A stretch of DNA of 64,000 nucleotides from Gari tellinella (Eukaryota; Mollusca; Bivalvia; Cardiida; Psammobiidae), in contig OV277868.1 in assembly GCA_922989275.2 (NCBI GenBank), positions 23,122,291-23,186,290 of the forward strand, in the 5' to 3' direction. The translations under genes were made by a program, and so were the position numbers. Positions 3,601 to 62,281 of this stretch are shown here, in pieces. The notes under the pieces are model-generated. The model worked only from the letters and a program-made list of their open reading frames with translations. It searched no databases and was not told the DNA's origin. The first letter of the stretch is position 1; each line of letters opens with the position of its first letter.

Positions 3601-6600
3601 CTGCAGGATGTGTGGCAAGTTTTAGAAATCCCTGGTATCTACTGAATCAGTGCACATAGACCATGAGCCCTTCTAGTTTGAACATCAAGGAGGCAATCTA
3701 ATCAGAGCACATCATGGAGGTAATCTACATCAGAGCACATCATGGAGGCAATCTACATCAGAGCACATCATGGAGGCAATCTACATCAGAGCACATCATG
3801 GAGGTAATCTACATCAGCACATCATGGAGGCAATCTACATCAGAGCACATCATGGAGGTAATCTACATCAGAGCACATCATGGAGGCAATCTGCATCAGA
3901 GCACATCATGGAGGCAATCTACATCAGAGCACATCATGGAGGCAATCTACATCAGAGCACATCATGGAGGCAATCTACATCAGAGCACATCATGGAGGCA
4001 ATCTACATCAGAGAACACAAGCTGGTCCTCAACAAGGACGGGCCACTACAACTCGCCACTCATTTGGGACAAAGCATTAACATTGCTCACTACAATCTCG
4101 AGTGGTGTTAAATCCAAGTGAAACATCAGTTGGTTGACAAAACCTTTAAAGTTTAAAATAAACCATAAAAAAGCAATTTTTTTTAACATTTTGATATTGT
4201 AGTTAATGGAGGGTTGACCGAGTGGACAACATGGACGTCCTGCACTGTATCATGTGGAACAGGAAGCTGGTCGAGGTCACGTGATTGTACAAACCCAGCC
4301 CCTCAGTATGGAGGCAGTAACTGTGTGGGGGACACTACAGAAACACAAGATTGTAACACCAGCCCTTGTCCTAGTGAGTTTATAAGCTTGTTAATATCAA
4401 AGTAAGATTTGCTGATGGGAACAGTTTTAGCTCTTCTGTTTTTGGAAGAAAGAAAATAGTAACTGTTGTCACTCCTGGGGCGGCCTTTATCATTGTTGTT
4501 GTCATCAGGGCTGCCATTTCTCCGGATTTTTCCGAAATCTTCGGATTTTTATTCCAACAGATGGAAGCTTAAAGCAGGCTGAAAGCAAAGCAGAATGCGC
4601 CTGAAGGCGCATTCTGCTTTACTTTCAACCTGCTTTAAGCATCACGTGTCTTAAAAACTAGAAACAGGCTATGGGTTAAAGGTATAATCAGGAAAATCGG
4701 GCTTGAAAAGTGGACAGATTTGAAATCTTAGGATTTTTTTTATCAACTTATGGCAGGCCTGTGTCATAAATCTTAATGTTTGCCATAACTTCTTCCATTT
4801 TTCATCTACAATCTTCAGTTTTGGTAGGCTAATCATCTTGACAAGTCCTACAGTGGAGAATCTGTTATTCTTTCCCGTTTAAACGCAAAGCACTAAAACG
4901 TAGAAAAGAACAACTTTTGGACAATTCTGATAATTCTTGTTTATCTTGGTGGCAAACAGTTTGGAGCCTGATCAGACGCCGGGTTACCCGGCGTCTGATC
5001 TGGCTCCAAACTGTTTGCACTGCAAATAATATTGTGAATTGGTAAGATGCAAATTCCCCTGGTCAGTTCGGAGTGTTAGGACATCCAGTGTATATAATAT
5101 AGCTGGTGGTGAAGCAATTCTATTGAGTTATTTAGCTACCAGTCTGTTGTTATGCACTGTGTGTCTTAGCTAGGCGCTGCTGCCGTATCCGATTGATCAG
5201 GGAATGGACTGTATAAGAGTGGTTTACTGCATACATATGAGTCATATGATTTACCTGCAAATAATAGTTTTAGCGTAAACGCGTTTATTGGGAAAGAATA
5301 ACAGATTCTCCACTGTATCCAGATAATGTGCTTCCTTCCTACAACAGCCCTCCAAATAATGATTCCCTCCTTACAATAATGCTTGTTGCTGTTCCCCAAA
5401 TATAACAATTATGTCTAACACTTTCACTGCTCCAATACTGTCTGCCTAAAATCATTGTCTGCAGTTTTATCTCAAAGTCACTTATACAAGTGGACAGTTG
5501 TCAGAAGAAATATAATGACGAGTGACAAACAACTTGAATCCAGATCAGATGACTTGTTATGTCATTGTATTCCAAAAGTAGAATAAAACATAGTTTTCTG
5601 TTACGTGGCTAGCCACACACGCAAAAAAGAGAAAAAGTTACACAAAGGTCAAATGTTAGAACGTCCCTCCGTTTGTCAGTCAACATTTTGTTTGTCTGGA
5701 GTGCTCTCCGAAAACTACTGTAAGGATAATAATGAAACTTAAGACAAATTTTATATGCATCAAGATCTGAAGCTACGTCAACATTTTGTTTGTCTGGAGT
5801 GCTCTCAGAAAACTACTGTAAGGATAATAATGAAACTTAAGACAAATTTTATATGCATCAAGATCTGAAGCTAAGTCAACATTTTGTTTGTCTGGAGTGC
5901 TCTCAGAAAACTCCTGTAAGGATAATAATGAAACTTAAGACAAATTTTATATGCATCAAGATCTGAAGCTAAGTCAATTGTGAGGTTCTTTTGTATTATC
6001 ATTACAGAGTTATCTGCCCCTGGTGTACTCAGATATGCTAGAAATGGCTTTATTATGCCCCTGCGACGATCAGTCCAACAATACTGTTTTATTCCTGTCT
6101 GTCCGTCTGTCCTGCATACAGTACATACTTTGTTAGGCTAACTTCTCATACAGTTTTCAAACTACAGTCGATTTTCGATATCTCGAAGTCGGTTTTGTCG
6201 CTAAGCCACGTTTTAACTTTGAAATATGGGTATGTTTGACTTAACTGAGCATGAAATAATGCAGTTCATGTGTCGAACTATCGGATAGGTCGAGTTAAAC
6301 AAGTTTGAGATATCGAAGTTCGACTACAACGCATACATACTATAGATGTGCATGTGAACAGGGTTTTGATCTGCTATGATTTTCACAAATAAGTGAAATT
6401 ACAGTCAGTTGAACTTAGATAAAGTTTTGCCGACCGGGGCCTCATATTTGTCTTACAGACAAAGCCATCTCTCTAATTTCAGTATTGTTTATGCTCTAGT
6501 CTCTACTATTTGGAATGGATTTTGATAAAACTTTGTAAAACTATATATGGGGATAAGTTCTTGAATGAGTTCAATTATGGTCAATATTAGGCTGATTGGT

Positions 6601-9600
6601 TGATCTATCTAAACTTTATACCCTTCATGTGCTGAAAACGACATATTTTGAATTTTAACTGTGTCCACAGTTTTTACTTTAATTTGAATTTACTTGCACA
6701 CAATGTACAGTAAAACCTCGCTATTACGACCACTAAAACGAAAGCTAATTTCTTGTATAATAGAGAGGTGACAGCTTAAAGCAAGGTGAAAGTGAAACAA
6801 AAAGCTCCTAAAGGAGCTTTTTGTTTCACTGCCACCTTGCTTTAAGCGGTCACCTACCGTAAACACCCTAAACATTAACATAATTTAGAGGTCGTAATAG
6901 AGAGGTTCTACTGTATATGAGTATAGATGTGAGTGGATCAAATCATTGTGTTCAGATTTATTTGTCTACAAATTTGAAAATATTTAGATTTGACTTGTTT
7001 TAGCTCGCCTGGTATGAAGTACTTTCAACCTGCTTCAAGTGGTCACCTGTTTTCAATTTTAATACAGGTAATGGGTGAATGGAATTTTTTTAAAAAAATG
7101 CCTTTTTGCTAGACTAATGACTAAGAGGTACATTTTGCAGTTGATGGAGGCTTCACTTTGTGGACAGCATGGGAATCTTGTTCATTAACATGTGGTACAG
7201 GAAGTCAGCCGAGGTCACGTGATTGTACAAACCCAGCCCCTCAGTATGGAGGCAGTGCCTGTGTGGGGGACTCTACAGAAACACAAGACTGTAACACACA
7301 CTTGTGTGCTAGTAAGTTAGTTTAACCCATTACCCAAACACCTTTTTATGCCTTTGATTTATTCCACCATTGAAGAAAATAGTTCCAATTTATACAATTA
7401 TGAATATGTATAATACTGGTAAAAAAAAATAATTCTATATCCTTGCAGATGGTAGCTTAAAGTAGGTTGAAAGTAGAGCAGAATGCACCATAAGGTGCAT
7501 TCTGCTTTACTTTCAATCTGCTTTAGGGGTCAACTGTATAGACTAGAAACAGGCTATAGGGTAATGGGTTAAAGAAATAGAGAAATATAGTAAATAAAGA
7601 TAGAAACTCTTGTAGGGCTATTATGTTCGACAATTATACAGTTGTACCGCGATAACTCAAACCCTCTGAAGTTGAACTGATCAATATTTCTTCACTTGAC
7701 ATTTGACTGCTTGAGTTTGCTCAAGTCAAACATACCCGTATATCAAAGTTAAAACATGGCTATATTCAAATACAGGTATATTCTACTTCAATAAGTTTGA
7801 GATAATGAGATTCATCTGTTCCACATGTGCTAGTTTGAATACATTGTTATATCCCATCTTGATAATTTGCCAGTCATATAGTACCTGTGTCTGCATGCAC
7901 ATCCATATATCCTACTTATTAAGTACAGTGATGCTCACTTATAACGAACTCGGATATAGTGAAAAACCGCTTAGTATAAAATAAAAATTATTCCCCGACC
8001 GTGTCCTTCTTTATTTCTATGTACTACCACTTGCTTAAGATGAAATCGGATATAGTGAAAAATCGGTTAAGATAAACGAATTTTCAGGTCCGTATAATGA
8101 AGTTTACCTGTAAAATGGTTCGGATAATATAAAATTCCAATCGGTAATTATCACAGTTTGACGAGTGCTCACAACCGTCACGCTAGTTCATTGTTTGACT
8201 GGCTATCACCTCGGGCACGAGCGTTATGTATACATTGAGACCATTTAACCCTTATCATGCAAAATACGACTGTTCACATTTGCAAACAGTTTTGATCCAG
8301 ATCAGACGCCGCATGACGCGGAATCTTATTTTGTATCCAAACTGTTTGCCACTCATCTTCAACCTTTCGACACGTTGACAAGCTAATAAAGAAATCTTTT
8401 GTTTTGATTTTCGCAGGCAATATATTCGAAGCAGACGACAATTTGGCATAACACGGGTTAAAGGATAGTTTCAAGTGAATGCTTATTCTCCATTTAGAAA
8501 TACTCAAATTATCCAAAACAAAAAAATTGTTTTTTTCCTGTTGTAATTCACTCGCGCTCTTGATAGATTGTCAAGACCATTTCAAAATGTATAGTCCATC
8601 CGTTTTATTTCAAGAATGGCTGATTCGTCTTGACAGGAAATTTAAACGAGAAAAGCGAAAGGTGAGTAGATTTGTCTTTAAATATAAATGTAACTTATTT
8701 ATAAATACCGAAAAGTTCGAACGTCGTAAAGATAGTCCAAATACAAAATTTGGGTCAAACAAGGGAAGCTACTCTAAGATATGTCATGGCGACTTTCAGA
8801 ATTGCCACTTTAACACTTTTGTTGCCAAGCTCTATAACACTAACACTATTATGCAAACAGTTCAGATACAGATCAGACGCCGCGTAATGCGGTGTCAGAT
8901 CTGACTCTTTACCGTTTGAGACTCATACACGTATTTGGTAAGTAAAACACGCATGGATTTCTAAGCGAATTTTTTTAATCGCCAGGTTCTACGATGATAA
9001 TGTACCGCTGGCTACACTGCTAGAGGAATATCAAGACTCCTTGCCACTGTCCGTGTACTGCCAGAAAACACAAACGCAGGTCAGTCATATGCATATTCAA
9101 CAAGGGGAAAATATAAACAACACATCATCAATAAGGATTTAATTTTCTTCTTCTTACAGTTTACCTGGATGAAAGAGTTACATGGACATGTACTGGCAAA
9201 AAGTTTAAAGCAAACATTGTAGACCCTGGTCACAGGGCTATAATATCTGTCCGATGTGGGTCTATTCTGTTTGCAAATGTTTTAAAAATACACATGTACT
9301 TTGTTTTACTTATGCTTGCAATGAATGCTGAAAGTTTATGATTTTTCAGCTTTCTCTCTCAGATGTAGTCAATGTTGATACGGGTGTGGCTACAACTGAG
9401 GACAAAACAGACAGCGGCATCATCACTGATATTCAACAGCCAGGCTCTCAGGATGACAGCGATGATGATGATGAGGAGGAGGAAGAGACAATACTTGCCA
9501 GAACAGTCACATCTAAAGAGACGACATTGGAGTTAATTGAGAATATTAGACACTATTTGGAAAATACTGATGACATTGGGGAGCATGTCTTTTCTGCTCT

Positions 9601-12600
9601 TAATGTAGTTGAGCATAACATTCAAACAGGAGCCAAAAAACAAACAAAAATTAGTGATTTTTTCACAAACTCTTCATAAACCTTTCATAGACAGTGATGT
9701 TGAGATACAATAAGAAATACAATGTAAAGATACACTGCCCAGGGTTATTTTTATATTTCTGCCTATTCATTTGTTTTTGTACCAAGAATATGGTGTTTCA
9801 TAATTTTCGTTATATCCAAACAGTTTTGACCAAAATTTCGCTATATGGATATAGCGAAATTTGGATATAGCGAACAAATTTTCAAGGTCCCTAGAATTTC
9901 GTTATAAGTGAGCATCACTGTATTTGGATTTAGTACAATAATGGACTGGAGTACATTTTACTTCAGTAAGGGTCAGACAATTTCACATGCTCCTGCACCT
10001 CAATGTATATGTCACAGGGATAATGTGTAATCAGGGATTACGCGTAATCACTGGGCGTTTTAGGGAATTGATGAAATGTCCCTTTTTTCATCAAATTAAT
10101 AGATTTGTATTATGATTGTTGCCTAGCTCTGAGGGTCCATTATAGCAAGACAAAGCCAGAAGTAGGTTGAATCTTCATTCATGATGTTACATAGTCAATA
10201 GATGATGGTACAGTGGAGAATCTGTTATTCTTTCCCAATAAACGCGTTTACGCTGAAACTATTATTTGCAGTGCAAACAGTTTGGAGCCAGATCAGACGT
10301 CCGGTAACCCGGCGTCTGATCAGGCTCCATACTGTTTGCCACCAAGATAAACATGAATTATCAGAATTGTCCGAAAGTTGTTCTTTTCTATGTTTTAGTG
10401 CTTTGCGTTTGCGTACGTTTGCGTTTAAACAGGAAAGAATAACAGATTCTCCACTGTAATGGATATGTGGGATGATGATATATACAATACTGAGTCTCAA
10501 CTCAACTCAACTGCAAGTTGACAACCAACTGCAATCTGAAAGTAATAATGAATACATGAGTGATCATGCCAAATAATTCTAAACCCTGCTGGCATGAATA
10601 TAAAACATGACACATGGTAATAACAATAACATGTAAATAAACGCCTTTACTATTCCTTATGAAAAAAGGGCATGAAACACTATGGGGTAAAAATATAAAG
10701 TTATGTGGTTGCTAACAGCATAACATCCCATAACATGCTGTTATGTTATGTTATGGTTGCAAACACATAATAACAAACTATTGCTTCCTAAATGCAGGTC
10801 TGATAATGAATGGGCTTTACAGTACAAACTTATAACAAATACACAATACTCCACCCACTTACTAGTTTATGGAACTAAACGCAGTTACCACTCCTCCACA
10901 ACTCTGCCAACTCACACACTCACTGTAGGTGCTTAAATTGCAAATAATGTTATTCTGGTTAGTCAAATATCATAAACAGAAGGTACAGAAATGACAATTG
11001 CTGCTATTTCGATTCGCGAAAATACATTAGGCTACAGACAAGCCAGAGTGAAATAACTTCAATACGCATTGAAAACAATAAAGCAGAAGCTCATTACAAC
11101 CTGTGCCAATTCGTTGCTAATTCATAGTAATGATACAAACCTGTATAAAAATATATTAAATGTGTTTTCTTCTGAGATGTTTCCCTCTCAAATCTAATCA
11201 TACAACTGAAAACCGTGCGGAATGACGTCAGAGAGATAAAGAGTTACCGAACTTGGATTAAAATGAGTGAAAAGATAAAACTACCGAAATGACCGAAAAC
11301 ACAACCTGGTCACAATCATGACATTTCTTTTGGTTTAAAACATCATGCTGTCTTGAAATATCATGGTCTAATGAATGTTCATACAAAGTTTCTCGCACAA
11401 GTAAATAAAATTAAGTGAACAGTGTGAATATAAGCAACAACAATAAAAAAAAAACAAGACATCTGTCTTGTTAATACGGTTAACAAAATATTTCATAGTG
11501 TGGCATTTGCCTTTATTTTATGACTAGGGCAAAGACTAACTACTACTAACTAAATCCTGAGTTTATTTTTCAACTGCTGCGGGTGTCCCTACAGGGGTAG
11601 GCAGCAGGCGGCCAGAGTTTCCCACACCTAACCTCCAGGCTTCTCTATTCTGCGGATCTATGCCGTCGAGGCTGCATGTCCTAATGTCAGCCTCGACACA
11701 TTCCAACCAAGTCTCCTTTGGCCTCCCTCGCCCTCTCGATCCTGGCACTTCCATAGGCAAAGACACAAGACTGAAACACTGGAACTTAATATAATAACTT
11801 TATATAGTATGACTGTCTTTGACAGGATTCATATGACAATTATGAAGAATATTGTAGCAGTAATGGCCGTGGTAAAGGAGGACGAACGGGTGTGCCTTAA
11901 AACAATATAAATGTGTATGCCAACACTTAATGATAAACTGCAGATACCAAGAATTACGCTGAACTTCCATGGGCAAAACCTTGCACTGCGATTTGTCCCC
12001 TTAAATTATGCACAATAGGGACAGATTGATACTAGAAACATCCAAGATTCCCGAGTTAACTCTTAAACTAGGAATACTGAAAGAATAGGACTCTACCATA
12101 TTCGTAAAAGGCAAAAACAAAAAGCAGCAACTGCATGCTGTACAGAATATGCAACGTAATGAGACCATACCTCTATACTAATCTGATTGACTCAACATCA
12201 CAATTGACAACATAGCAACCGATTAAATCCCACCCCGGAATTATATTCTACATACTAGTACAAACTACAAGCTTTGACAGCGCGTTGCCTGCTATAATTA
12301 CCTACGTACCTGCTTTAGCAACTGTCCGACCGGCCCGAGCAAAAGTTTGACTTGCCCTAGCAACAACCGTCCAGCAGCCCCAAACCTCCCTAAAGCAATA
12401 TTCCTATGCACTATAGGAATCCTGTTAGAGCCACCCTGGGCAACATTGTTGATGCCTTAAAAAACGGTTTGTATTCACGCTGGTGTCCTACCAGCTATAG
12501 CGACTGTCCAACTGGCTTAAGCAACAGTTAGTCATATGATAGCAACAGTCCACCCGCTATAACGTTACCTTCCTTCCAGCTACCGCGACTGTTCGAACGG

Positions 12601-21600: not shown

Positions 21601-24600
21601 TAGAGCTGTGCATCAGCAGTTATTTCCTTCACAATTTGTATATATCCTTATGTTTCAATTGATTGACGATATACAGTAGAACCTCTCTATTACGACCACT
21701 AAAATGTGTCAAATATTAGTCGTTTAAGACAGGTGACTGCTTAGAGCAATGTGAAAGTGATAGGAGCTTTCTGTTTCACTTTCACATTGTTCTAAGCTGT
21801 CACCTGTTCTTTATACAGACAAATAGCCTTCTTTTTAGTGGTCGTAATAGAGAAGTTCTACTTTATATCATGATACTCATTGCCTGTTGTGTATTGCAAT
21901 ATTCAAGTCATGATACAATATGTACAGTAAAACTTTTTTATAACGAACTCTGATACAGCGAATTTCGGCTTATAGCGAATTTATTTTCGTTCCCCGGCCG
22001 AGCTCAGCATTAATTCTATGTTGACTATCATGTTTAGTACGAATTCGGTTATAGCGAATTCTCGTTTATGGCGAACTGATTTTCAAGTACCTTTATTCAC
22101 AAAACAGTGTAAAATACCTTCGTTAAAGCGAAGTCTCATCTTGCTTCAGTCTTCAGTCACCTATGTAATTCTCGCGATAAACATAGTGACGCATAGGTGT
22201 TAAAACACACAATAAGATCTGGATGACTTGTGAATTGATCCGTAATTACGATACGGTATAATTACCGTATAATCTTAATGCTTTGTGAACTCCATTAGTC
22301 CTGGAAGCATAATGTGCGCTCCACTGTACGTGTTGCAACTATGCATATATTCTTTCAGTTCTCGTGTAAACGTTTATTTTTATCCGTGTCGAATTATAGA
22401 TATGCGTAAGTAACAGGCCCCATATCTTGTCCATTTCCTACGTGTAGACGAAAAAGATGAAGTAATCCTATTGTCGTGTCATTTACATAACCGGGTCTGA
22501 TTATTTCGACTTGTTTGATTGGATGTTTAAAAGAATAAATAAAAACATGATAACTCTCAACCGGTGAAGCAGAAGATTTAAGTAAACGGAATCTCAATGA
22601 TTTAAAAATTAGAGGTCGGTAATGTTATCACGGAATATTAAATCCTTAATATTTATAACAACTCAAGTGAATGAGCATATGACGGCTCGCGTGTTAATCT
22701 AACTGTACACACTAGTGTATTTACGTGTTTGGTATCATGGAAGTTTAAGAGAATACACGGCATATGCGCTAACAAATAGCGTTATCGCTGCATATTTTTC
22801 TTTTCCATTATTTCGCTTGAAGATGTGACATAGATCGTGAATTGCATTCCAAGATTAAATGGTAGACAAGGTAAATAATAACCAGTGTATGAATATAGAA
22901 TGTGACCGCGTACATGTATTATGGCGACGTATTTCAATATGGCAATGAATATAAAGTTCAGTCGCAAACCAGGATGATAACTTATAACGAATTTCGTACT
23001 ATCAATATAGCGAATAATGTTTAGAGCGAAATAAATCCTCAGGTCCCTTGGAATTCGTTATAACCGAGTTTTACTGTATCATGATACAGATATTTAAATA
23101 TAAACACAACACTTGTTAGTTTACAACCACCCTAATTGCTTTAAATCAAATTTGTATATATTAACAACTATATTTAATGTTAAAAGTATTATGTTGGAAG
23201 AGGTATTTTTCCTTCAAAAAGTATATCATTTTACTGCCATGTCAGTTACATCGATGTCTGCAAAACATTCAAAGACTTAAGGTGTCCTATGGTGTAAAAT
23301 GCTGACTCTATGGTGTGGATACTTATCAGAATCATCTCTAGAGACGTATCTAATGAGTAGTCATAGGATTTGTTGCTGAAATGAGTGAGAAAATGTTGTA
23401 TTTGTTCAGTTTACTCCTTCTTATCTGGAGCCCTGGCAAATGAAGGGTTTCATGTGTCCTATAAATGGTGCATATGCAGACGAAAACATTAACCCATTCC
23501 CCCATAAAAATGCCTTTTTACGCCTTCAAATAATTCCTCCACTGAAAAAAACCAGACAGTAGCTTAAAGCAGGCTGAAAGTAAGGTGCATTCTGCTTTAC
23601 TTTCAACCTGCTTTAAGTTGTCAACTATTTTCAATTCTACAAATAGGCTATGGGGTTATGGTTTAAACAAACAGCTTTTTACAAAGAATGACTATAAATA
23701 CTATGTGAATGGGCTATGTGTACTATAGTGCTCCCTCTCTACAACGACATCCAATGGGAGACACATATTGTGTGCGTTGTTTGGAGGGAGTCGTTTTAAG
23801 CCTTGGCTTACATTTGCAAACAGCTTGAATCCAGATCAGACGCCGCGTTACGCGGCGTCTGATCTGGATTCAAGCTGTTTGTCACTCGTCATTATACTTA
23901 TTCTATCAAAATCTCCACTTAGAAAAAACAGCAGACGACAAATTTAAGTAGACGACATTGCAGCCATGAAAAGGTTGGATATAATTGTCTTGTTTGGAGG
24001 ACAGCGGCAAGAGTCGTTGTAAGGAGGGAGTCGTTGTAAGGAGGGCCGTTGTAGGGAGGGAACACTGTATGTGAATATTATATGGGCTATGTATACTACT
24101 AGATATGGAGGATAGAGTTAACAATTTTTTTCAGTTGATGGAGGCTTCACTATTTGGACACCATGGACGGCCTGCACTGTATCGTGTGCGACAGGAAGTC
24201 ATAACAGGTCACGTGAGTGTACAAACCCAGTCCCTCAGTATGGAGGCAGCGACTGTGTTGGCGACTCAGCTGAAACAGGCGATTGCAACACTCAGCCATG
24301 TCCTAGTAAGATTTGTAAATTTGTTTATAACATAACCTACAGTTTGAGCTGTGTATAACACTCATTGTTTATTTCTTGTATATAGCTAGTGGTTTAACTA
24401 TGCAAATGAGGCTGTTTTACTAAATTGTGTAATCCTAAGCGCTGTCAAAATTTGTAAACAAATATGGCGTCAAATGACATTTCTGTCTGCAATCGAGTGG
24501 CTCTAGATTAGAAGGGACAGGATATGTTTGCTCCCTAGATTTGTTTTGAATAAATCGAAATTAACTTTGGAACTACGTTTTGTATGTTTTCTCACTTGGG

Positions 24601-33600: not shown

Positions 33601-36600
33601 TGACCAGCTATGAGTGGAGTCTGAGGCCATGTGACGGGTACCAGGTGGAGACGTGTACTATCTTAATGTCACAGATCCACTACATTAGCCACACGGGCAA
33701 ATTGTACAAATATCAGCCGTCCACATCACAGTATGATGTTGTGGGATGGACATATCTTGGAATGTTTGTTAAAGGTGAGTTTTACATGTACAAATATCAG
33801 TATGCAAAATTTCCAATTGTCCGATTGCCCCAGAAAACTAAGTATGAGGTGCACCATTACAAAACCTGCCTTATTGAATATCTCATTGTTAAAACCAAGC
33901 ACCGTTGTTATCACAGGCTCTGAATCGGAGTTTGGTCTACACTCAAATATTGTTTAGAATACTGCTAAATACAATGCTTTATATGCATGTGGGTGTTGAA
34001 TCGTGTAGATCAAGGCCAGCCACCCCGTCTATGACGGGGTGGCTGGCCTTGACCTACACTGTTTGAAATGCAATAAGGCAGGTTTCCTTATGGCACGGCT
34101 CATAAATTTAGACAACCATTATTTTTGTTTGTCAGTATGTCTGTCTGGTGGACAATCTGTCACTGTGACAAAATACAGGAAACTTTTCCTACATCCAACC
34201 AGCGGGCTACCTGAGGGTCCGTACTGGTCTGGAAAAGTCCTGGAATTTAATTGGTTTCAGTCTTGGAAAACTCCTTGAAAGGGAAAAGTACTGATTTTGT
34301 CCTGGAAAAGTCCTTGAAAACATAAAATTGTCAGAAGTCCTTGAATTTTAGAAAAATTGGATTATCATGGGACTTAAAATGTGAACTATGAATCTTTGAT
34401 GTTTACATTTTCAAAATAAATGTGTTATTGATGATAACAACGGTACAGGTAAGAGCTGCTGTGTGCAAAAAGCACATGTAAAGTGTTGCTAATGACAGCA
34501 ACAGATATTGATTTTAAATTTAAATTTTTACCGCATATTAATGCAGCAAACATGAGTCTTGAGAAGAAAGTATGATTATAACACAAATGGGCTTATTCGC
34601 GAATAGATAGGACTGTTCAAATCAGATATAATGAGAGCACTGTGTTATTTCAGCCTGTGACTGGATTATTTGACATTTCAAGTAAAGGAGAGTCAGCTTT
34701 AATCATCATCATCATCATCGGTATTTATATTAACGTGCAGGAGTGGGAGTGTCGTCCACATCGGTGGGCCCCCTTCCAGGCAGCTGGCTAACTGCACGCA
34801 TAGCAGATCTCACATTGGATCTCCACATATCCCTGTCACAAGGGTCGACTTCAGAAAGTTTCCACTCTCGTCTATCTCTCTCTGCTAGAGTCTTCCATGT
34901 CATCTTGGGTCGCCCTGGACCACGTCTTCCCTCAATCTGTATGGTGCACAATACGTACACAAAAGGAGGAACGCACTTGAGAAACTTAAATTGGGATAAG
35001 AACAATAATAAGACGGACCTGGAAACTAATAAATTTAGTCCTAGGCCAATGTCCTGGAATTTGACTTGAACTGATTTGTATTTACCATAGCTACTATATA
35101 TGACATAGATATGCTTTTTTATGCCTTTCATTTATTCCTACACTGAAGAAAATAGTTTCATTTGATATTCATGAATGTGTACCACAAGAAAAAGTTTCTA
35201 TATCTTAGCAAATGGTGGCTTAAAGTAGGCTGAAAGTAAAGCAGAATGCGCCTTAAGGCGCATTCTGCTTTACTCTCAACCTGCTTTAAGTGGTTACCTA
35301 TATTCAATACTAGAAACAGGCTATGGAGTAATGGGTTAACCTATAGGGGAAACACAGGGCTGCCATTTCTCCGGATTTTTCCTAAATCTTCGGATTTTTT
35401 TTCTAGTACATGGTAGCTTAAAGCAGGCTAAAAGTAAAGCAGAATGCGCCTTAAGGCCCATTCTGCTTTACTTACAGCCTGCTTTCTGGAGTCGCATGTC
35501 AATAAAACAAGAAACAGACTGTGGGGTAAAGGTACGATTCGTAAAATCGCACTTGAAAAATGCAACTTTGGAAATGATTGGATTTTTCATGTCATGTTAT
35601 GGAAGCCCTGGAAACAGTTAACTTTAAATTTGTAAAGTTTGAAAAATAATCATATGTAAAAACAACATTTGGAGGAGATTTTCTGAAATTGAATTGTACT
35701 TTTTCATGCAAAAGTTGTGTGTATAATCCAATCCTTTCTTAATCTGGTTGTTTATTTCAGTTCAGTTGACAGACGGTCAGCAAGGAATGATTTATCACAT
35801 ATGGAAGTTCTTTGATCCTGTTAGATCCCCAGTAGCCTGTAGTACAGCCCCACCCACTGGGTACACCATGGAAACCCAGTACAACACCAGCTGTGAGGAG
35901 GTGGTGATGCCTGAACCTTACCCAGTGGTTTACAGCCTCTATACAGATGAAACACTCCTGGGTAGGAATTACTGTAAAACATCTCTAGTACCATCATTAA
36001 TTTGTGTTAATTATTAGGTTTTTAAGACATGTGACTGCTTAAAGCAAGGTGACAAAAGCCAGGCTCTATAACACTACAATAATTATGCAAAAAGTTTAAA
36101 TCCAGATCAGAATCCACCTAGCGGGCATCTGATCTGGATCTAAACTGACACCCATATTACAAAACCACATAAAATTCCAAATTTTAAAAGTAAGAGAATT
36201 CCAAAGATTTTCAAAAAATCTGTAGGTCCAGAATTTCCGAAAAATCCAAAGATTGCGGACAAATCCGTAGAAATAACGGCCCTGGTATGTCAGCTGAACC
36301 CTTTTATGGTATATTGGAAATGCCAGTAAGAGCTGGTTTAAATAGTATTATAGACACTGAAATAATAGTCTATTAACCTTTTCAATGCTGGATATGGATA
36401 TATACATCCTTATTAGCTCACCTGGCACGTAGTGCCAAGGTGAGCTATTTTGATTGTCCTATGTCCAACGTAGTCCGTCGTTCGTTCGTTCGTTCGTCGT
36501 CAACAATTTCTTTGAACAACATCTCCTCTGAAACCACTGAATGGATTTTTACCAAACTTGGCAGGAATGATCCTTATATGGTCCTCTTTCAAAGTTGTTC

Positions 36601-39600: not shown

Positions 39601-42600
39601 GTATGGTGTATATTTGTTACAGGTGAAGCCAGTCAGTATTGAGGTTTTGATTGGAAGTGGTGAAAACTCTGTCGAGCAGCTCATCCAGGAAGGAGATGCT
39701 TTTGGTAAAGTTCAGTTAACATTCAGACATAGGAGTACATACAGAAGATACCAATATCTCCTGTTTAACTCTTTCAACTCTAAGTATCTCTTGTGGATTA
39801 TTAGGTTCCCTTGTGGATGATTTTAGTTACCAAAACATGAACCAGTCTACTTGGAACGCTCTGTAGTTAAATAAATACTGCTCTAAGTTAGCAAACAGTG
39901 TAGACCCTGATCAGAGGGCTCCTATAGGAGCCCTCTGATCAGGGTCTTCACTGTTTGCAAATGTAATGAGTACATTTTAAACAGGTCCATGGTATTGAAA
40001 GAGTTAATGAAACTAAAGGCATTGCAATAAAGTATCTTATAATATAACACACAATGCAAGCAGTGAATAACACCATTTGTTTATTTTTCGTATACATGTA
40101 TTACTAGTGGTATAACTATGCAATGAGACTTCATATACAGTGGAGAAAACGTTATTCTTTCCCAATAAACGCGTTTACGCTAAAACTATTATTTGCAGTG
40201 CAAACAGTTTGGAGCCAGATCAGACGCCGGGTAACCCGGCGTCTGATCAGGCTCCAGACTGTTTGCCACCAAGATAAACATGACTTATCAGAATTGTCCA
40301 AAAGTTATACTTTTCTACGATTTAGTGTTTTGCGTTTTGTTTGCGTTTAAACGGGAAAGAATAACAGATTCTCCACTGTATTTATGACGTCATTATGTAC
40401 AACTGAGTTCAATATCATATGTCATCGCTCCTTCATGTAGATTTAATTCATAGATTTCATGTTTAATTAAATACCTGCCCAGTTTCTTTCATATCTGATA
40501 TGGATTTTTTATGCCCGGCGACAATCAGTCGGGGCATACTGTTTTATGTCTGTTCGTTCATCCATTAGTTTGTTCCTCCATCCCCTTGAGGGGTAAAGTG
40601 CCCGATTACAAAGTTCTTTGGACGAGACTTTAAAAACTGAGGTAAGATGTATCAGTGCTTTACACTGGGTATCTAAAAGAACCAGAGAACACTGATAATA
40701 ATAGCAAGGCATCGCGCCCGGGTTCTCTGTATCCGCTCCCCTCTCTCAGGTTGAAAGTAAAGCAGAATGCACCTTAAGGGCATTCTGCTTTACTTTCAAC
40801 CTGCTTTAACTTACTATCTACTAGGATATAAAAAATATTTCTTATGGTACATATTCATGACTGTATAAAATGGAAGAATTTTCTTTAGTGGAGGAATAGA
40901 TTTAAGGCGTATTTATGGGATAATGGGTTAAGAAACAGATTATGGAGTAGAAGGTTAAATGAGATTGAAATATCAGTGTTTGACTGTAGCAAACTGAATT
41001 ATCAAGTTAGCTAATTGACCCATTACCCCATAGCCAGTTTCTAATTTTGAATACAGGTGACCACTTAAAGCAGGTTGAAAGTAAAGCAGAATGTGCCTTA
41101 AGGCACATTATGCTTTACTTTCAGCATGCTTTAAGCTATCATCTGCAAGGATCTAGCAAATATTTCTTATGAAGCTTATTCATGGCAGTATAAAATTGCT
41201 CTATTTTCTACAGTGAAGGAATTAATCAAAGGCGTATTTATGGGGTAATGGGTTTAACATGTGTGATTTGCAATGCTAGGAGCTCTGAGGAGGTTGGATA
41301 GTGTAGTTGCAATGCTGAACCATGTGGAGGTAGGACATGACGACCATACAGACAACAGTAGCAGTGAGAAACAAGACAGTACTCAGAGCAGTGAGGAACA
41401 AGTAAGTATTAACTCTTTCCTCCCTGAATCTGTAAATGGACAATTCCAGTTTCAATTTTAGTCTAGTCACTTTCTGACTTTTAAGGGTTGTTTTTGTCAA
41501 TGTTTGGCATTATGACAAACAGTGACGACCCTGATCAGAGGGCTCCTTTCGGAGCCCTCTGATCTGGGTCTTCACTGTTTGCACAGGACAGGACTGGTGT
41601 ACTATTCACATGTACACTGTTTGAAAAGGACGCCTATATGCGGGACTATAGGGTTCAAATGGTTAAAGTGTTTATTTTTGTACATGTATAAATAAAACAT
41701 GTGTATAGGCATTTATCCCTCATACAATGTATGAGTTAACCCATTACCCCATAAATATGCCTTTAACACCTAATTTATTCCTCCGCTGAAGAAAAAAATT
41801 CCATTTATATAGTCATGAATGTGTACCATAAGAAACACTTTCAATATCCTGATAAATAGTAGCTTAAAGCAGACTGAAAGTAAAGCAGAATGTGCCTTAA
41901 CATAGAGGTCATGGTCACATTAACCCTTTCCCCAATAGAAGCTCCTTTTAGCGGATATGATTTATTCTTCCGCTGAAGAATATGGTTCCAATTTAATCAG
42001 TAATAGATATGTATTATAGGGAATATTTTCTATGTTATAGCACATGATAGCTTAAACCAGGCTGAAAGTAAAGCAGAATGCGCCTTAGGGCGCATTCTGC
42101 TTTACTTTTAACCTGCTTTAAGTAGTCACCTATCTTAAGTACCAGAAATAGGCTATCAGGTAAAGGGTTAAGGGGCATAATTTTTCGCAAACAAATTTTG
42201 TGACAGTCCTTCTATAATAGGGGTTGAAATTGGATGTCATACCGATTGCAAAATGCCTGTTTTATCCCCCAAATTCATTGAAAGAATTTCCCCCAAATGT
42301 AGTGCATATTATTCTCTCGAAACCTATGTCAAATCTTCTGTAAAAAAAACTTCATTACAATTGTCATATTCAATTACCTGTCCTGTTTTTAGCTCACCTG
42401 AGCCAAAGGCTCAAGGTGAGCTATTGTGACCGCTCACCGTCCGTAGTACGTCTGTCCGTCTGTCCGTTCACATTTACTTCAAACGACATCTCCTCTGAAA
42501 CCCGCCGATTGTAGGGAGAGTTCAAACTGCTCATGATGTTCCTTGGATGCTTCTCTACAGAAGTTGTTCAAAAAAAAGGAAAAAAAGCACAAACTCGGCT

Positions 42601-51600: not shown

Positions 51601-54600
51601 AGTAAAGCAGACTATTATAATCCTTTCCCACCTTATCCTGTTTCTAGTCTTGAAGAAAGGTGACTACTTAAAGCAGGTTTGGATCCCGATAAGATGACAA
51701 TCTGGATCCGAACTGTTTGACACTCTTATATAACTAAACTTCAGTTTAAATAGCTTACAAATGATATTGATTTTGTTCACAGACAAATACATTTAAAGCA
51801 GACAACAATTCAGCATGAATCATTGATAAGGGTTAAATTAAAAACTTTAAAATGTCTATAGGAACAAAAAATATTTGTTTTATAAAAAACCTTCTTCTCA
51901 AACCAGAAAGCTTAGAAATTTAATGGAAAGTACCACCTAGTAGACTTCTACCAAGTTTATTAAAATAAATGCCCTAGGATTAAATGCAATAATCCCAACC
52001 CCTGGGGTACTTTTTTAACAGTTTCATATCAGGGCTGCCATAAGTTGACATGAAAAATCCTAAGATTTCCATATTTGCATTTTTCAAGTGCGATTTTACG
52101 AATCGTACCTTTACCCCATAGCCTGTTTCTTGTTTTGTTGACATGCGACTACTTAAAGCAGACTGTAAGTAAAGCAGAATGCACCTTTAGGCGCATTCTG
52201 CTTTACTTTCAGCCTGTTTTAAGCTACCATGTACTGGAGAAAAAAATCGAAAGATTTAGGAAATATCCGGAGAAATGGCACTTGTATAAGAAATCAACTT
52301 AAATCCTGAAGGTCCTGTACCAAGATAAACAAGTTCAAGGTTCAATATAATGAGGTAAGCGATTTAGGAGTCCGAGCCATCATGTCCGTCTTGTTTATCT
52401 TATTCAGATAGGAGTGATCAGATGTGCTGGTAACTCAGAGACCCACATGTACCAGTACCTGGTGTGTGTTATAACTGGCTGGTGGAGTCAGGCAGGCACC
52501 ACTGCAAATGTCTTCATCAAGTTAACAGGTAAGTTAACTCTTTGAACCCTAGTCACGCATATAGGTGTCATTTGAAAACAGTGTACCTGTGAGGAGTACA
52601 CTTGTCCTATGCAAACAGTGTAGACCCTGATCAGAGGGCTCCTTTAGGAGCCTTCTGATCAGGGTCTACACTGTTTGTCATTTTGACAAATTTTGTAAAA
52701 ATCAACCCTAGAAATTAAAAAATGGACTAGACTGAATTGAAACTTAGAATTGTCCATTTTAGTAGGTTTCAGGGAGGAAAGGGTTAAAAATTGAACATAC
52801 TTGATAAGCTATATACAAACTTTAGCTGTGAATCAAACTAAGGCAAATGGAGATTTCTAAAGACAAGTAGCTGAATGCAGCAAAAATAAAAATCCATTTG
52901 TTTTAGTTTTTCACCGAATAACAACCAGTTTAACTTAGTCATTTCTTGCCTACAGTCAAACTTCGATATCTCAAACTCGGTTATATCGAACATACCCATA
53001 TTTCAAAGTTAAAACGCGGCTAAGCCGCGTTTTAACTTTGAAACACAGGTATGTTCACCTATACCGAGCTTGAAATAAAGCAAATTCATGTTTCGAAATA
53101 TCCGATATTTCGAGTTAAGCAAGTTCGAGATCGAAGTTCGACTGTATAAAGTTCATGCAAGCATTATGAGACTATTTTGAACCTATTGTCACATGTATTT
53201 GGGTCACATATTAACTCAAGTTACAGTCTAACAAATAGTGAGGGAATCATGTATCTTACAGACACAGTTATGTCTCTAGTCTTGACAAGTTTGATGCCAA
53301 CATCTAGTAGCCTGTTCCTTTTCTTTTGAATTACAACAGTAAGAACTTGGACATCATTTGCGCACAATGTCATCCGTTTTGACATCATGGGTTGAAAAAT
53401 TGATTGTATATGCACATCTTTTACAGTGTACCTGTGAAGAGTAAATTTGTCCTATGCAAACATTGTAGACCCAGATCAGAGGGCTCCTGTAGGAGCCCTT
53501 GATCTGGGTCAACCATATTTTTCCGGGCAAGAATGTTGTCTAAGCATTGTTACGTGTTGGTATTATATATTTAGGTAACCTTGGTGATAGCTCTAGAGTG
53601 TACCTTACCTCCAGCAGTAGGAAGTGTTTCCAGAGTGGCTATGAAGACTGGTTCCTGATCACTACAGAGAGTTGTCTGGGCAAGCTGCAATCTGTTACCC
53701 TGTGGCATGATAACTCTGGGACAAGTCCACACTGGTATGGAAGACAACAGTCCACTCTTGTGTTAAGAAGAAACCAGTGATTACTTAAATGAAAGCTTAA
53801 AGCAGCTCCTATAGGAGCTTTCTGCATTACTTTTGTTGTACACTAGTAAAAGATTGTTTCTTAACTCTTTGAACCCTAGTCCCGCATAAAGGCGTGCTTT
53901 TCAAACAGTGTAGATGTGAATAGTACAAATGTCCTATGCAAACAGTGAAGACCCAGCTCAGAGGGCTCTGAAAGGAGCCCTCTGATCAGGGTCTCCGCTG
54001 TTTGTCACAATGCCAAACATTGACAAAAACAACCCTTTAAAGTCAGAAATGGACTAGACTAAATTGGAAACTGGAATTGTCCATTTTACGTTTCAGGGAG
54101 GAAAGGGTTCACCAATTGAACCCAAGCAGCAAGAATATTTGTCAATTTACAAAGAGGTGTACTTGCAAAAAATACATTTGTCCTATACAAACAGTGTAGA
54201 CCCTGTTCAGAGGACATTGTATGCACCATTTATCTTTTAGCCATTTATTGTAAAAAATACCCAAAGTAAGTCAAAAACTGGATTAGACTTTATTGGAAAT
54301 TGTCCATTTAAAATGTTAAGGGTTATTGGGTTAACACAAATTTGACTATATAGTTTGCAACTAAAATATGTTTATCCCTTTAGGTTAATGATCTGAAGAT
54401 CAGTATGGATTGTTATTACCAGGGCTGCCATTTTTCCGGATTTTTTCCAATACATGGTAGCTTAAAGCAGGCTGAAAGTAAAGCAGAATGCGCCTTAAGG
54501 CACATTCTGCTTTACTTACAACCTGCTTTAAGTAGTCGCATGTCAACAAAACACAAGAAAAAGGCTATGGGGTAAAGGTACGATTCGTAAAATAGCACTT

Positions 54601-57600
54601 GAAAAATGCAAATTTGGAAATCTTAGGATTTTTTATGTCAACTCATGGCAGCCCTGTATTACTTTTGTATTGTGTTTTATATGAGCAATGCTCTTATTTA
54701 TATACATTGACCTGATCTCATTAGGGACATGTGGTTGTTATGACAGGTATCTGGAGCAAGTATATATAAAAGAACTGGCCAGTGGGGAGTCATGGATGTT
54801 CATTTACAATGACTGGTTAGATGTTGACAGAGGACACATACAGAAAACATCAGCGACAGTCTATGCTAGCCCAAAGGTACATACTTGAGGTTTATACTTA
54901 TATTGAATTTGTCCATACGTTGGTCTGTCCGTCTGTGAATCAACATTTTGTTTGTCCAGAGTTTTTCAGGAAAGCTGTCTGAAGGATATTAATGCTACTT
55001 CACACAAATGTTATATGCATGAAGATCTGAAGCTCAGTCAAGTTGGAGTTTCATTATATTTTTTATTATAGAGTTATCTGCCCTTATACTATCTGACTTA
55101 AAGGCTTTCAGTGGGCGTATTATGTACTGTTTGCGGTGCTCTTGTTAATCATTCTTTTAATTCTTCTATACTAGCAGATGTGGCTTAAAGCAGACTGAAA
55201 GTAAAGTAGAATCCCTTGAAGGCGCATTTTGCTTTACTTTCAACCTGCTTAATCCCTACTTTCAACCTGCTTTAACACCTTACTTCACAGCATGTTTCTA
55301 ATATTGAAGATAAATGACCAATTTAAGCAGGTTGAAATTTCACTCCTTTATCCATAGGTCAAGGTCACAGGATAAGATTACGTTGTTACAAACTTTTTGA
55401 CTGGTCTGTAATTTCTTTATCGTTGAAAAGATTTCAAAACAATTTGCACACATGGTCACCAGATAAAGATAATGTATCGCATTCAACTCCCTTGTCCATG
55501 GGTCAAAGGTCAATTTTGTGTCCGGTCAGTAATTTCTTTATTTTGTGACTGATTACACCTTGGCACAGATGTTTACTGGACAATTAAGACAACATATTAT
55601 TTCAAAACAATTTGCCACAAATTATGACCAGATAAAAGGCAGTTTGTCCCGTTAAAATTAATGGCTCTAGATCAAATGTCAAGGTCACAGGATAAGATGT
55701 CTTCAAGAATTTCATGTCTGGCAATGTATGCAATGTCTCCATAATAACTGAACATTTGTTGGTGTCATTTTCAAGTCCCTTGTCCATGTGTCAAAGACAT
55801 ATGTTTCAAAAGTCAAGGACAAGAGTACAATTCTGTTTTGACAAGATGGCAGTTTTGGGACTTTACCCCATAGCCTGTTTCTAGTTTTGAAAATCGATGA
55901 CTTCTTAAAGCAGGTTGAAAGTAAAGCATACTGCTTTACATTCAGCCTGCTTTAACCTACTACCTGCTAGAGTAATGAAAATTTTCCTTATGATACATAT
56001 TCATGACTGTATACATTAGGACTATTTTCTTCAGCGGAGGAATAAACTGTATGCCCTAAAAGGAGCTTCTATGGGGGAAAAGGTTAATCACATTAGTCGC
56101 ACTCACTGTGACATTTCATGTTTCAGAGAGATACCCAGGTCAAACAGAAGTTCCACTTTTTATTGATGACCAAAAAGAGTCTCCTTGAAGACCATGTTTG
56201 TGCAAGTATTTTCACGAAGCCTGCTCGCAGCACCTTCACCCGTATTCAGAGACTGACCTGCTTCCTGTCTCTACTGCTGACCACCATGCTGACTGACATT
56301 ATGTTTTATGGCATTCAAACCAATGACCGTGAGGAGCATCAAGATGCCCAAGAGTTCAGTCTGTCTTTGTCACAGATTTCTGTAGGTAAGTACAAGTGTT
56401 CAATAATTGTTGATTGATTGATTGAGTTGGTTTTACGGCACTGCGACACATGGCAATAATTGCACAGTAAAACCTCTCTTTAACCCTTTGAACCCTAGTC
56501 CCGCATATTGGCGTTGTTTTTAAACAGTGTGCATGTGAAAAGTACACCTGTCTTGTGCAAACAGTGAAGACCCAGATCAGAGGGCTCCGAAAGGAGCCCT
56601 CTGATCAGGGTCTTCACTGTTTGTCATAATTACAAATATTGGCAAAAACAACCCTTACAAGTTAGAAATGGACCAGACTAAAATGGAAACTGGGGTTTTA
56701 GGGAGGAAAGGGTTAAAGCAAGGTGAAAGTAAAGCAGAAAGCTCCTAAAGGAGCTTTCTGCTTTACTTTCACCTTGCTTTAAAGCAGCCATCTACCTTAA
56801 ACACCAAATAGAGTACATAATTTAGTAGTTATTTAATTTCTCTATATTAGAAATAGCTCCAGTTTATACAGTTATGAATATGCACCATAAGAAATATTTT
56901 CTAACTGGTGAAAGCTGAAAGTAAAGGATCCTTCTGACCAGGGTCTGCACTGTTTGTATTTTTTGCAACATATTGTTAAAACAATTCTAAATAGCAATAA
57001 AATAGACTTAATTGAATTTTTAACTTTCCATTTAAAGTTTCCAGGGTGAATGAGTTAACTTACAGTGGAGAATCTGTTATTCTTTCACGTTTAAACGCAA
57101 ACGTAAGCAAACGCAAAACACTAAAACGTAGAAAAGAACAACTTTTGGACAATTCTGATAATTCATGTTTGTCATGGTGGCAAACAGTTTGGAGCCTGAT
57201 CAGACGCCGGGTTACCCGGCGTCTGATCTGGCTCCAAACTGTTTGCGCTGCAAATAATAATTTTTAGCGTAAACTCGTTTATTGGGAAAGAATAACAGAT
57301 TCTCCTCTGTACATGTACTTATTATTACTACAGGGGTACAGAGCAGCCTGTTGATGTTTCCTGTCAACTTCCTCATCACTCAGCTGTTTATCTGGGCTAA
57401 GCCCGTACAACATGGGCTCCAGCATGATCAGACAAACTTAATCAGTGACGAGTCACAAGGACAGCCACTGCCTAGTAATATTACAGGTTTACCAGACATT
57501 TATGACAATTTCTACAACATTACTAAAGACTTGGAAGAACTGCGAGACTTACTTGACATGCTAGAAGGTCATTGTGTGTCAGCCATGGACTGGTCTGTCA

Positions 57601-60600
57601 CTAGGCTGTTGCCATTGTATGCATATGTAGACTTTGATAGCGGGAGTGAGTCTGGTAGTCTGTTTTCTGCGGGCAGTTGGGATCTTGTTGATAATGAGCA
57701 GGACTGGGATGAAGGGACACTCATGGATGGTACCAGTACCAAGATACAGAGAAAAACTAAAGAGTATGTGAACTTACTTATACAGTAAAACCCCTCTAAA
57801 CCGGAACCTCTAAATACCGGAATTCTCTCTAAACCGGACAAAAACTGTGGTCCCGTTGCCCACCCATTTTTACAGTTGAAAATACATTCATGAACATATA
57901 TCATCAGAAATATTTCTTTTATATTCTAGCAGATGATATCTTAAAGCAGGTTGAAAGTAAAGCAGAATGCGCCTTAAGGCGCATTCTGCTTTACTTTCAA
58001 CCTGCTTTAAGTGGTCAGCTATACCTTCCATACTAGAAACAAGCTATGGGTTAAAACCCCTCTAAACCGGAAACCCCTCTAAACCGGATGTTTTTGTTGT
58101 CCCCACACGTGTCCGGTTTAGAGGGGTTTCACTGTATTTTGATTTTATGTATTTTCTGTAAGTTACCACATAGCCTGTTTCTATACTCATATGCAAAAGA
58201 ACTGTGCATTTTTAGCTCACCAGGCAACGACTCCCTCCTTACACTTGTTACTGTTACTGCTACAATTATGTCTACACTTTCACTGCTAAAATATCATCTG
58301 CTTAAAATTGTTGTCTGCTGTTTTTTCTTACATGGTGGACATTTTGACAGAAAAATTAAGACTTGGTTTTTACATTTTGAAACCAGATCAGACGCCACGT
58401 TACGCGGTGTCTGATCTGGATTCAAGCTAATTGCAAATGTAAGCCAATTTCCCTCCCTATAACAACTGCCAAGGAACACACGATCTTTGTCTCCAATTGG
58501 GTGTCATTGTAGGGGGGGGGGGGGGGGGGGCACTGTATTTGTATTTATCAATTAATTGTAGCAGTGTGCTTACACAGTTCTCTCCGTTTCAGACTGCGCT
58601 TGTGGTGTATGTATACAGCTTGGTGTCTGGTGATGCTCACCTGCCTGATTGCTTCCTATTTTGTCATGTTGTATGGTATGAGGTACGGCTCGAAGCACAG
58701 CATGGAGTGGCTGGTTTCCTTCTTCACAGCATGTTTCAGTTGTACCTTGTTGCTGGAACCAATCAGGGTAAGTACCTTCCTATTTTGTCATGTTGTATGG
58801 TATGAGGTACGGCTCGAAGCACAGCATGGAGTGGCTGGTTTCCTTCTTCACAGCATGTTTCAGTTGTACCTTGTTGCTGGAACCAATCAGGGTAAGTACC
58901 TTCCTATTTTGTCATGTTGTATGGTATGAGGTATGGCTCGAAGCACAGCATGGAGTGGCTGGTTTCCTTCTTCACAGCATGTTTCAGTTGTACATTGTTG
59001 CTGGAACCAATCAGGGTAAGTAGAGACATGATTCGGTGTTGTGAATGGTTTAATAACTCATACCTTTATTTATAAACTACATACAGTCAAATTCCTGGTT
59101 ATTTAACTCTTTCCTCCCTGAAACTTTAAATTGACAATTCCAGTTTCCAATTCAGTCTAGTCCATTTCTGACTTTTAAGGGTTGTTTTTGTTAATGTTTG
59201 GCATCACGACAAACAGTGAAGACCCATATCAGAGGGCTCCTTTCGGAGCCCTCTGATCTGGGTCTTTACTGTTTGCACAGGACAAGTGTACTATTCACAT
59301 GTACACTGTTTGAAAATGACGCCTATATGCTGGACTAGGGTTCAAAGGGTTAACTCCCCTCCCCCAACTTGTTTACATAGTTGGGAACAGGTGTTTGCTT
59401 AAATCAAGACTGAAAGTAATGCAAAATGCTCCTTAAGGCCTTAGAAGCATTCTGTCTCACTTTCAGCCTTCCTTAAGCCTACTGATTTGTGTCAGAATGA
59501 ACTAATAGAATTCCCTTCAAGTTTCTCAGTTGGGCTTCTAGTTTTCAGTATATTATTTTGAGATAATGAAAAAAAGTAAGATCTTTATTGATAGAATTAC
59601 GTCTCTTTGAAGTTAAGCAGTTTGTACGTTTTACTAGCTGACCATGGCTCATTTTAACCCTTTGAACCCTGGTCCCACATATAAGCGGCCTTTTCAAACA
59701 GTGTACATGTAAATAGTACACTTGTCCTATGCAAACAGTAAAGTCCCAGATCAGAGGGCTCCTTAAGGAGCCCTCTGATCAGGGTCTTCACTGTTTGTCA
59801 TAATGCCAAACATTGACAAAAACAACTCTCAAAAGTCAAAAATGAACTAGACTTAAATGGAAACTAGCATTATCCATTTAAAGTTTCAGGGAGAAAAGAG
59901 TTAAACCAGCTCAGTGTTTCTGCCTCAACATGCATAGCTCACACATTATTGTCAGTTGAGTACTTGTCGTTTTCTCAAACTTCATGTTTTTTTTCTCCAT
60001 TACAGATTGTTGGGGTATCATTTTTTCTTGCCATTATTTGTAAGAGAACGTTTTCATTAGATGGTTTGGAACCAAACATACAGACAGGTAAGGGAAGAAT
60101 GGTATTATTCTGTAATAAACATGTTTGTGTTAAAACATTCCAGTCTATTGCAAATAGTTTGGAGCCTGGTCAGACTCCGGGTTTGCCTCTCAGAAATCAA
60201 TTGTCAGAGCTTTTTAATGTTGTCATCATTATGCCCCAGGGAGAAGAAGTCGGGGGCATTCTTTTTTAACCCTATTGCACTTTTTAGTTTTACCCCTGTT
60301 TGCATTTTTGAAAGAATCATAATGTCTCCGCTGTACTGTGGAGAATACGTTATTCTTTCCCAATAAACTCGTTTACACTGACACTGTTATTTCCTTTGCA
60401 AACAGTTTGGAGCCAGATCAGACATCCGGTAACCCGGCGTCTGATCAGGCTCCAAACTGTTTGCCATTCAGATTAAAATGAGCTTTCAGATTTGTCAACA
60501 AGTTATTATTTCCACATTTGATTGCCATGCGTTTGCGTTTCATTTGTGTTTAACCCATATTTCATGCGGGATACACTTTTAGGTGTACCTCTAGGCAAAG

Positions 60601-62281: not shown

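Follow-up and report, generated by a model that had tools for sequence, protein, structure and literature searches.

Two near-perfect inverted repeats of about 70 bp, here called core I and core II, occur under three classes of transposon ends in one genome, and in three of the element families that carry them (A, D and E) the cores diverge about two to three times less than the arms beside them. These repeats are integral internal modules of very abundant miniature inverted-repeat transposable elements (MITEs), many of which have TTAACYC (piggyBac-like) ends. The explanation we put forward is that the cores are cis modules that aid amplification and that they have spread by nested capture; capture is shown for families B and G, the function is what we infer, and taken as a whole we consider the explanation about as probable as improbable.

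Two core hairpins and the elements that carry them

Core I is a 72-nt and core II a 66-67 nt near-perfect inverted repeat. The genome comprises 1.6 Gb in 80 contigs; the window, that is, the whole 64-kb stretch analysed, covers positions 23122291-23186290 of one contig, and a 200-kb sample was made up of twenty 10-kb stretches (L001-L020) drawn from eight other contigs. Searching the window with four core consensi as blastn-short queries gave 48 matches to core I (40 of at least 51 nt) and 36 to core II (29 of at least 51 nt), and the same threshold gave no match in ten dinucleotide shuffles of the window. The first-pass annotation, in which approximately 44 and 39 copies were counted by eye, has a span starting at position 4506 that leaves out another core I upstream (1510-1579). 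With the same 51-nt minimum, the 200-kb sample contained 75 copies of core I and 98 of core II, or 59 and 98 after removal of L019, a stretch occupied by a tandem array. Scaled to the genome, the order of magnitude is half a million core I and three quarters of a million core II, with a wide error, the standard deviation per 10 kb being roughly equal to the mean. Across the whole genome, 95,949 exact places were counted for a 30-mer half of core I (48,087 forward and 47,862 reverse), a perfect core I hairpin scoring one place per strand and hence twice, and the reversed 30-mer used as control has none; a 57-mer of the family D core II has 48,430 exact places and its control none. The viral contigs searched contained no core. 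A palindrome scan of the window that used no core sequence returned 56 palindromes; in the window and L001-L020 together there were 178, of which 68 overlap core I, 81 overlap core II and 29 overlap neither.

Several other repeats and features were seen on the way. L019 is along its whole length a tandem array with core I in each unit, matches recurring every 1,277 bases, so that core I is also part of a satellite-like repeat. On one contig, three exact half-core II places lie 100 bases apart (C1:26337426, 26337526 and 26337626), a spacing suggestive of a piece of core II repeated in tandem over a short distance. Palindromes unrelated to either core lie at 34003-34059, 49148-49222 and 52988-53056 in the window, and ones resembling the latter two are also present in L018, L013, L015 and L002. 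The window further contains a tandem repeat with a 61-bp unit at 19359-21297 (31.8 copies, 98% matches) and a thrombospondin type 1 domain exon at 7140-7313 (Pfam TSP_1, E 3.3e-14).

Element families were defined by clustering the outward arms of 242 cores and then building consensi. Core I is found in family A (TTAACCCWTTACCCCATA ends) and family B (CAGGGCTGCCAT ends), and a variant of it in family C (TA-CAGTAAAACCTC ends). Core II is found in family D (TA-CAGTGGAGAA ends), in family G (TA-CAGTG ends), in families H and I (TTAACCC ends, with a GCAGACGACA motif on one side) and, as a variant, in family E (TTAACCCTTTGAACCC and TTAACTCTTTCC ends). The GCAGACGACA motif, read outward with at most one mismatch, occurs in 28 of 254 core II arms and in 2 of 230 core I arms, and 27 of the 28 lie 49-81 nt from core II. 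For 55 of the 242 cores neither arm falls in a cluster of at least three, and several of these adjoin TTAA ends in low-copy arms. The consensi of families A to E alone account for 17.1% of the 200-kb sample. The elements have the marks of MITEs, namely a length of about 210-260 bp, inverted ends, a 6-bp duplication in B and a high copy number; the TTAA and TA duplications are putative, as they are read as part of the element ends. Representative copies in the window are as follows (no strand assigned).

61829..62080: family A element, TTAACCC ends, core I at 61878-61949 (core match and arm clusters; ends by eye)
4506..4761: family B element, CAGGG ends, duplication TGTCAT, core I at 4568-4639 (core match, duplication)
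35355..35610: second B element, duplication GAAACA, core I at 35417-35485 (core match, duplication)
54420..54656: third B element, duplication TATTAC, core I at 54461-54532 (core match, duplication)
6706..6915: family C element, TA-CAGTAAAACC ends, core I variant at 6775-6846 (core match; ends by eye)
40136..40380: family D element, TA-CAGTGGAGAA ends, core II at 40200-40266 (core match; right end by eye)
59654..59904: family E element, TTAACCCTTTGAACCC / TTAACTCTTT ends, core II variant at 59732-59797 (core match; ends by eye)
23724..24069: family G element, TA ends, core II at 23816-23881, H/I-type arm on the right (ends by eye)
7924..9922: F, a 2-kb element with inverted ends CAGTGATGCTCACTTATAACGAA (ends by eye)
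8255..8461: TTAA element inside F, core II at 8282-8349, GCAGACGACA motif (core match; ends by eye)
60334..60806: family D element, core II at 60398-60464, with a nested TTAA element inside (ends by eye)
60550..60779: TTAA element inside the preceding D element, core II-like palindrome at 60595-60661 (palindrome scan; ends by eye)

The core is a regular part of these elements. When elements were located by their outer 45 nt only and the core was then sought at the expected distance, it was there for 40 of 48 left and 56 of 66 right ends of A, for 28 of 40 in C (both C ends give the same places), and for 11 of 12 left and 13 of 22 right ends of E. For D left ends, whose probe cross-matches with that of the other D end, the core was at the expected distance in 46 of 90 cases and elsewhere in 37, and 7 were without core. 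The exceptions that were inspected include nested insertions, truncations and diverged copies. Arm pairs identified independently of the core enclose an insert of 50-80 nt in 39 of 43 cases for A, 38 of 42 for D and 12 of 16 for E, and among the 242 clustered cores the type of core tracks the arm family in nearly all cases.

End classes and capture between elements

Three classes of ends enclose the cores: TTAACYC in A, E, H and I, TA-CAGT in C, D and G, and, in B, CAGGG together with a 6-bp duplication. The TA-CAGT ends of C, D, F and G may be pogo-like, and two open reading frames of F that were searched had no transposase match in Pfam. Among 227 cores with two 200-nt arms, 25 have clear TTAA-anchored inverted ends (a match at 9 or more of 12 places), compared with 4 in the control; 23 of these 25 elements start with TTAACYC, the next base among the 25 being T in 14, A in 8 and G in 2, and TTAACYCNTT is common to the TTAA families. 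The piggyBac/TTAA MITEs described in the relevant passages of PMC2872659 are recognized by a TTAA duplication and a terminal inverted repeat (TIR) starting CC[C/T]T; this TIR motif is seen only in part here, because the next base is T in just 14 of the 25 TTAA elements. The 6-bp duplication of B is perfect in 10 of the 12 elements listed (9 of 11 if L045 and L046, one element in overlapping loci, are counted once), and no other length from 2 to 10 fits. All 12 listed B elements contain core I; three come from loci fetched by a core I pattern, and the remaining nine also all contain it. The ends are thus unrelated between classes and related within the TTAA class.

These observations refine the first-pass annotation. 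Of the four hosts it named for core I (A, B, C and J), the first three are confirmed, under TTAA ends, ends with a 6-bp duplication and TA ends respectively. Of the hosts it proposed for core II, D and E stand and F does not, the core II at 8282 being situated in the nested TTAA element. That ends and core are separable follows from the occurrence of the same hairpin under different end classes; however, the proposal that they behave as separate modules needs to be narrowed, since the TTAA types are related to one another and what B and G carry are parts of TTAA elements. There is true modularity, but it involves about three end classes rather than many unrelated families.

Repeated capture, one of the explanations offered initially, is well supported by the arms of B, the arm of G and the nested TTAA elements. 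When the consensi are compared by eye, the core of B is seen to be flanked by A sequence, 14 nt (12 of them identical) to one side and 44 nt to the other, beyond which B has a sequence of its own; judged from sequence, this shows B to be an A element that was captured and truncated. In G, the right arm can be aligned with the right arm of I nearly to its TTAA end (z 18.7) and with part of the right arm of H (z 16.9), which by the same kind of evidence shows that G contains a captured TTAA element. Since B and G share A or H/I flank, what was carried was pieces of TTAA elements and not isolated hairpins, and part of the modularity is the capture of TTAA elements together with flanking sequence. 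Nested TTAA elements with core II or a core II-like palindrome are present both in F and in the D copy at 60334-60806. Insertion of one element into another with later loss of a part accounts directly for B and G, and would probably explain C and D as well. For C, the consensi have GTCACCTGTCTT beyond the core in common with one arm of A, and an anchored comparison gives z 46.5 for C against that arm and 17.3 against the other A arm. For D, comparison of the consensus with TTAA core II arms found no similarity beyond the core, and anchored comparison gives z 7.8 for D right and 14.7 for D left against TTAA right, with control pairs reaching 6.9. Given the value for D left against the control, some shared flank is possible and a core-only relationship of D is not proved. 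In L017, at about 5111-5402, an E element is apparently inserted at the TTAA on the core I edge of an A element.

The presence of TTAA on both edges of core I (C-TTAA-AGC ... GCT-TTAA-G) raises the idea that the cores are themselves small mobile elements and that the TTAA-bounded core I could insert as a unit. This is very improbable, as C and one A arm share about 14 nt beyond the edge TTAA and core II is without TTAA edges.

Variation and pairing within the cores

The lower divergence of the cores was measured in copies found by their arms alone, CpG sites being omitted. The mismatch in A is 0.063 in the core and 0.177 in the arms, with the core lower in 39 of 40 copies; the corresponding values are 0.040 and 0.114 in D (37 of 40 copies) and 0.064 and 0.118 in E (14 of 14), and in C, with 3 copies only, 0.065 and 0.119. 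As the effect persists in arm-found copies, it is not a bias from finding copies through a good core. Common variants, for which a site qualified if 20% or more of the copies had a second allele, are likewise rarer in the cores (14 of 265 sites) than in the arms (76 of 521, outer 17 nt omitted; p 7.5e-5 for the families pooled). The difference is significant in A (1 of 68 against 17 of 142, p 0.008) and D (0 of 59 against 18 of 132, p 0.001) and not significant in E (5 of 66 against 22 of 147, p 0.18) and C (8 of 72 against 19 of 100, p 0.20). The outer 17 nt of both ends have 4 of 34, 5 of 32, 4 of 34 and 4 of 34 such sites in A, D, E and C, respectively. In this analysis and in the two that follow, each C element was counted once, after removal of both-strand duplicates.

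Private changes were estimated with neighbours picked by one arm and judged on the other arm. Their apparent rate is 0.064-0.070 in the core and 0.096-0.111 in the arm for A, 0.038-0.043 and 0.063-0.075 for D, 0.046-0.052 and 0.073-0.078 for E, and 0.055-0.059 and 0.083-0.103 for C. Equal private mutation in core and arms, hinted at by a first run, was thus rejected, and since the private rate too is lower in the cores we do not claim a purely source-level effect. In the closest pairs the core/arm ratio is 0.48 in A, 0.71 in D, 0.53 in E (3 pairs) and 0.85 in C (2 pairs). The low private changes in the cores, together with a ratio that does not clearly approach 1, mean that some of the effect could be due to repair or conversion after insertion.

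Hairpin repair or conversion remains a serious rival. On this account the cores would have no function and would reflect descent and capture only, either because hairpins are corrected or converted more than other sequence or because arms recombined around the core; we regard it as possible, if somewhat doubtful. The lower apparent private changes in the cores fit it, as do the pieces exchanged between elements in B and G, and the pairing of the stems bears on it in both directions. In a table of core consensi that mixes copies of both orientations, and in which the I consensus is out of register, those of A, B, C, D, E, G and H have at most one pair that is not complementary. Once copies are oriented by their arms, a C.A pair appears at position 12 in 32 of 47 A copies and an A.A pair at position 18 in 38 of 45 D copies; E and C have majority mismatches too, mainly at the hairpin tip. 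Changes between families are mostly two-sided and leave the bases paired (two-sided changes against broken pairs: 6 to 1 for A-C, 4 to 1 for D-G, 9 to 1 for D-E and 16 to 1 for D and a variant in L018), and comparisons with a single copy from L016 give 2-3 broken pairs. Within families, two-sided changes are more numerous than expected from a random redealing of the arms (observed 24 against 11.0 in A, 14 against 4.6 in C, 4 against 1.6 in D, 3 against 1.1 in E), which speaks for the rival, but one-sided changes far outnumber them (220 to 24 in A, 115 to 4 in D, 54 to 3 in E, 43 to 14 in C). Moreover, D has kept its stem mismatch, the 48,430 exact copies comparing with 1,499 that have the pair as A-T (the T-A form being outside this count). 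The dominance of one-sided changes and the commonness of the D mismatch indicate that stems are inherited from source elements, with no efficient repair copy by copy. Hairpin self-repair is consequently disfavoured as the main cause of the near-perfect stems, and could still have contributed in a minor way. The close match of core type to arm family also speaks against descent and capture alone.

In length and pairing the hairpins resemble small-RNA precursors, and the cores might accordingly be hairpin RNAs kept for a role of their own, as was suggested at the outset. That suggestion found no support: the window has no Rfam match at the gathering threshold, and the mismatch common in D leaves an unpaired A.A in a transcript of one strand and an unpaired U.U in that of the other. 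We therefore think an RNA role improbable.

A proposed cis role in amplification and its precedents

Our preferred explanation, a cis aid to amplification spread by nested capture, would proceed as follows. A TTAA element inserts into another element and part of the composite is lost; the composite may then amplify under the other ends (CAGGG with a 6-bp duplication, or TA-CAGT). Source elements with an altered core would amplify less, and it is this that would make the core a cis aid to amplification. Because the core is kept under more than one end class, its action would not pass through a single cognate transposase; it would rather depend on something common to all, either the DNA hairpin itself or a site for a host factor, which might favour excision during replication with a gain of copies by repair. 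The earlier idea of a hairpin that helps replication or excision is supported indirectly, by the constraint on the cores. The existence of core-less or altered copies speaks against the amplification reading.

The usual picture of a MITE is of two ends with dispensable filler between them. In the elements described here, the hairpins in that filler are less variable than the remaining sequence, and they are found with three classes of ends. A bolder version would see the hairpins as interchangeable cis amplification cassettes that work across transposase classes, with selection acting on the cassette while ends are swapped around it, in parallel with the conserved domains common to SINE families with different heads and tails; we hold this version to be rather unlikely. 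Should a function be confirmed, it would offer a direct handle on the very high copy numbers of some MITEs.

In the clam Donax trunculus, tandem-repeat MITEs are reportedly modular, with palindrome-bearing core repeats between flanks (Satovic and Plohl 2013), those cores being, it is said, tandem repeats inside one kind of element. A literature search, with most subscription journals outside its scope, retrieved no paper on the present core hairpins, and the passages of PMC10294476 and PMC3212995 that were covered contain nothing on such hairpin sharing. The initial statement that no such modular sharing had been described was nevertheless too strong, as coral CMITEs (PMC2872659) and MER6 (PMC6887750), in the relevant passages of both papers, precede it. 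MER6 is described there as a Tc1/mariner-type MITE carrying the V domain of a SINE (PMC6887750). As in our case, a conserved internal domain enters an element with other ends by insertion; in MER6, however, the domain comes from a retroelement and concerns one MITE group, whereas here hairpins occur in several classes of DNA elements.

The closest precedent is that of the CMITEs, at least as presented in the passages of PMC2872659 devoted to them. These TTAA elements of two corals (Acropora) have different TIRs and a common 75-base internal region, which is more conserved than the TIRs and which the authors speculated might take part in transposition; they also form tandem arrays, a new element has arisen by one inserting into another, and about 1600 copies were estimated in one coral (PMC2872659). 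The likeness is considerable, since here too an internal region is more conserved and common to families with different TIRs, and by eye the CMITE VI TIR CCCTTTCACTGCCA matches family I at 13 of 14 places. The CMITE internal consensus itself was not found in the 355 kb searched, where its best matches were 15-37 nt (E at least 0.49). If function is confirmed, our results would extend that 2010 coral observation, the cause of which the authors left open in those passages (PMC2872659). In contrast to the CMITEs as described there, the module here is a hairpin and also lies under TA-CAGT and CAGGG ends. The present analysis adds that the common module is a hairpin, that a single genome has it under three classes of ends, and that its conservation was measured in copies located by their arms and not by the core.
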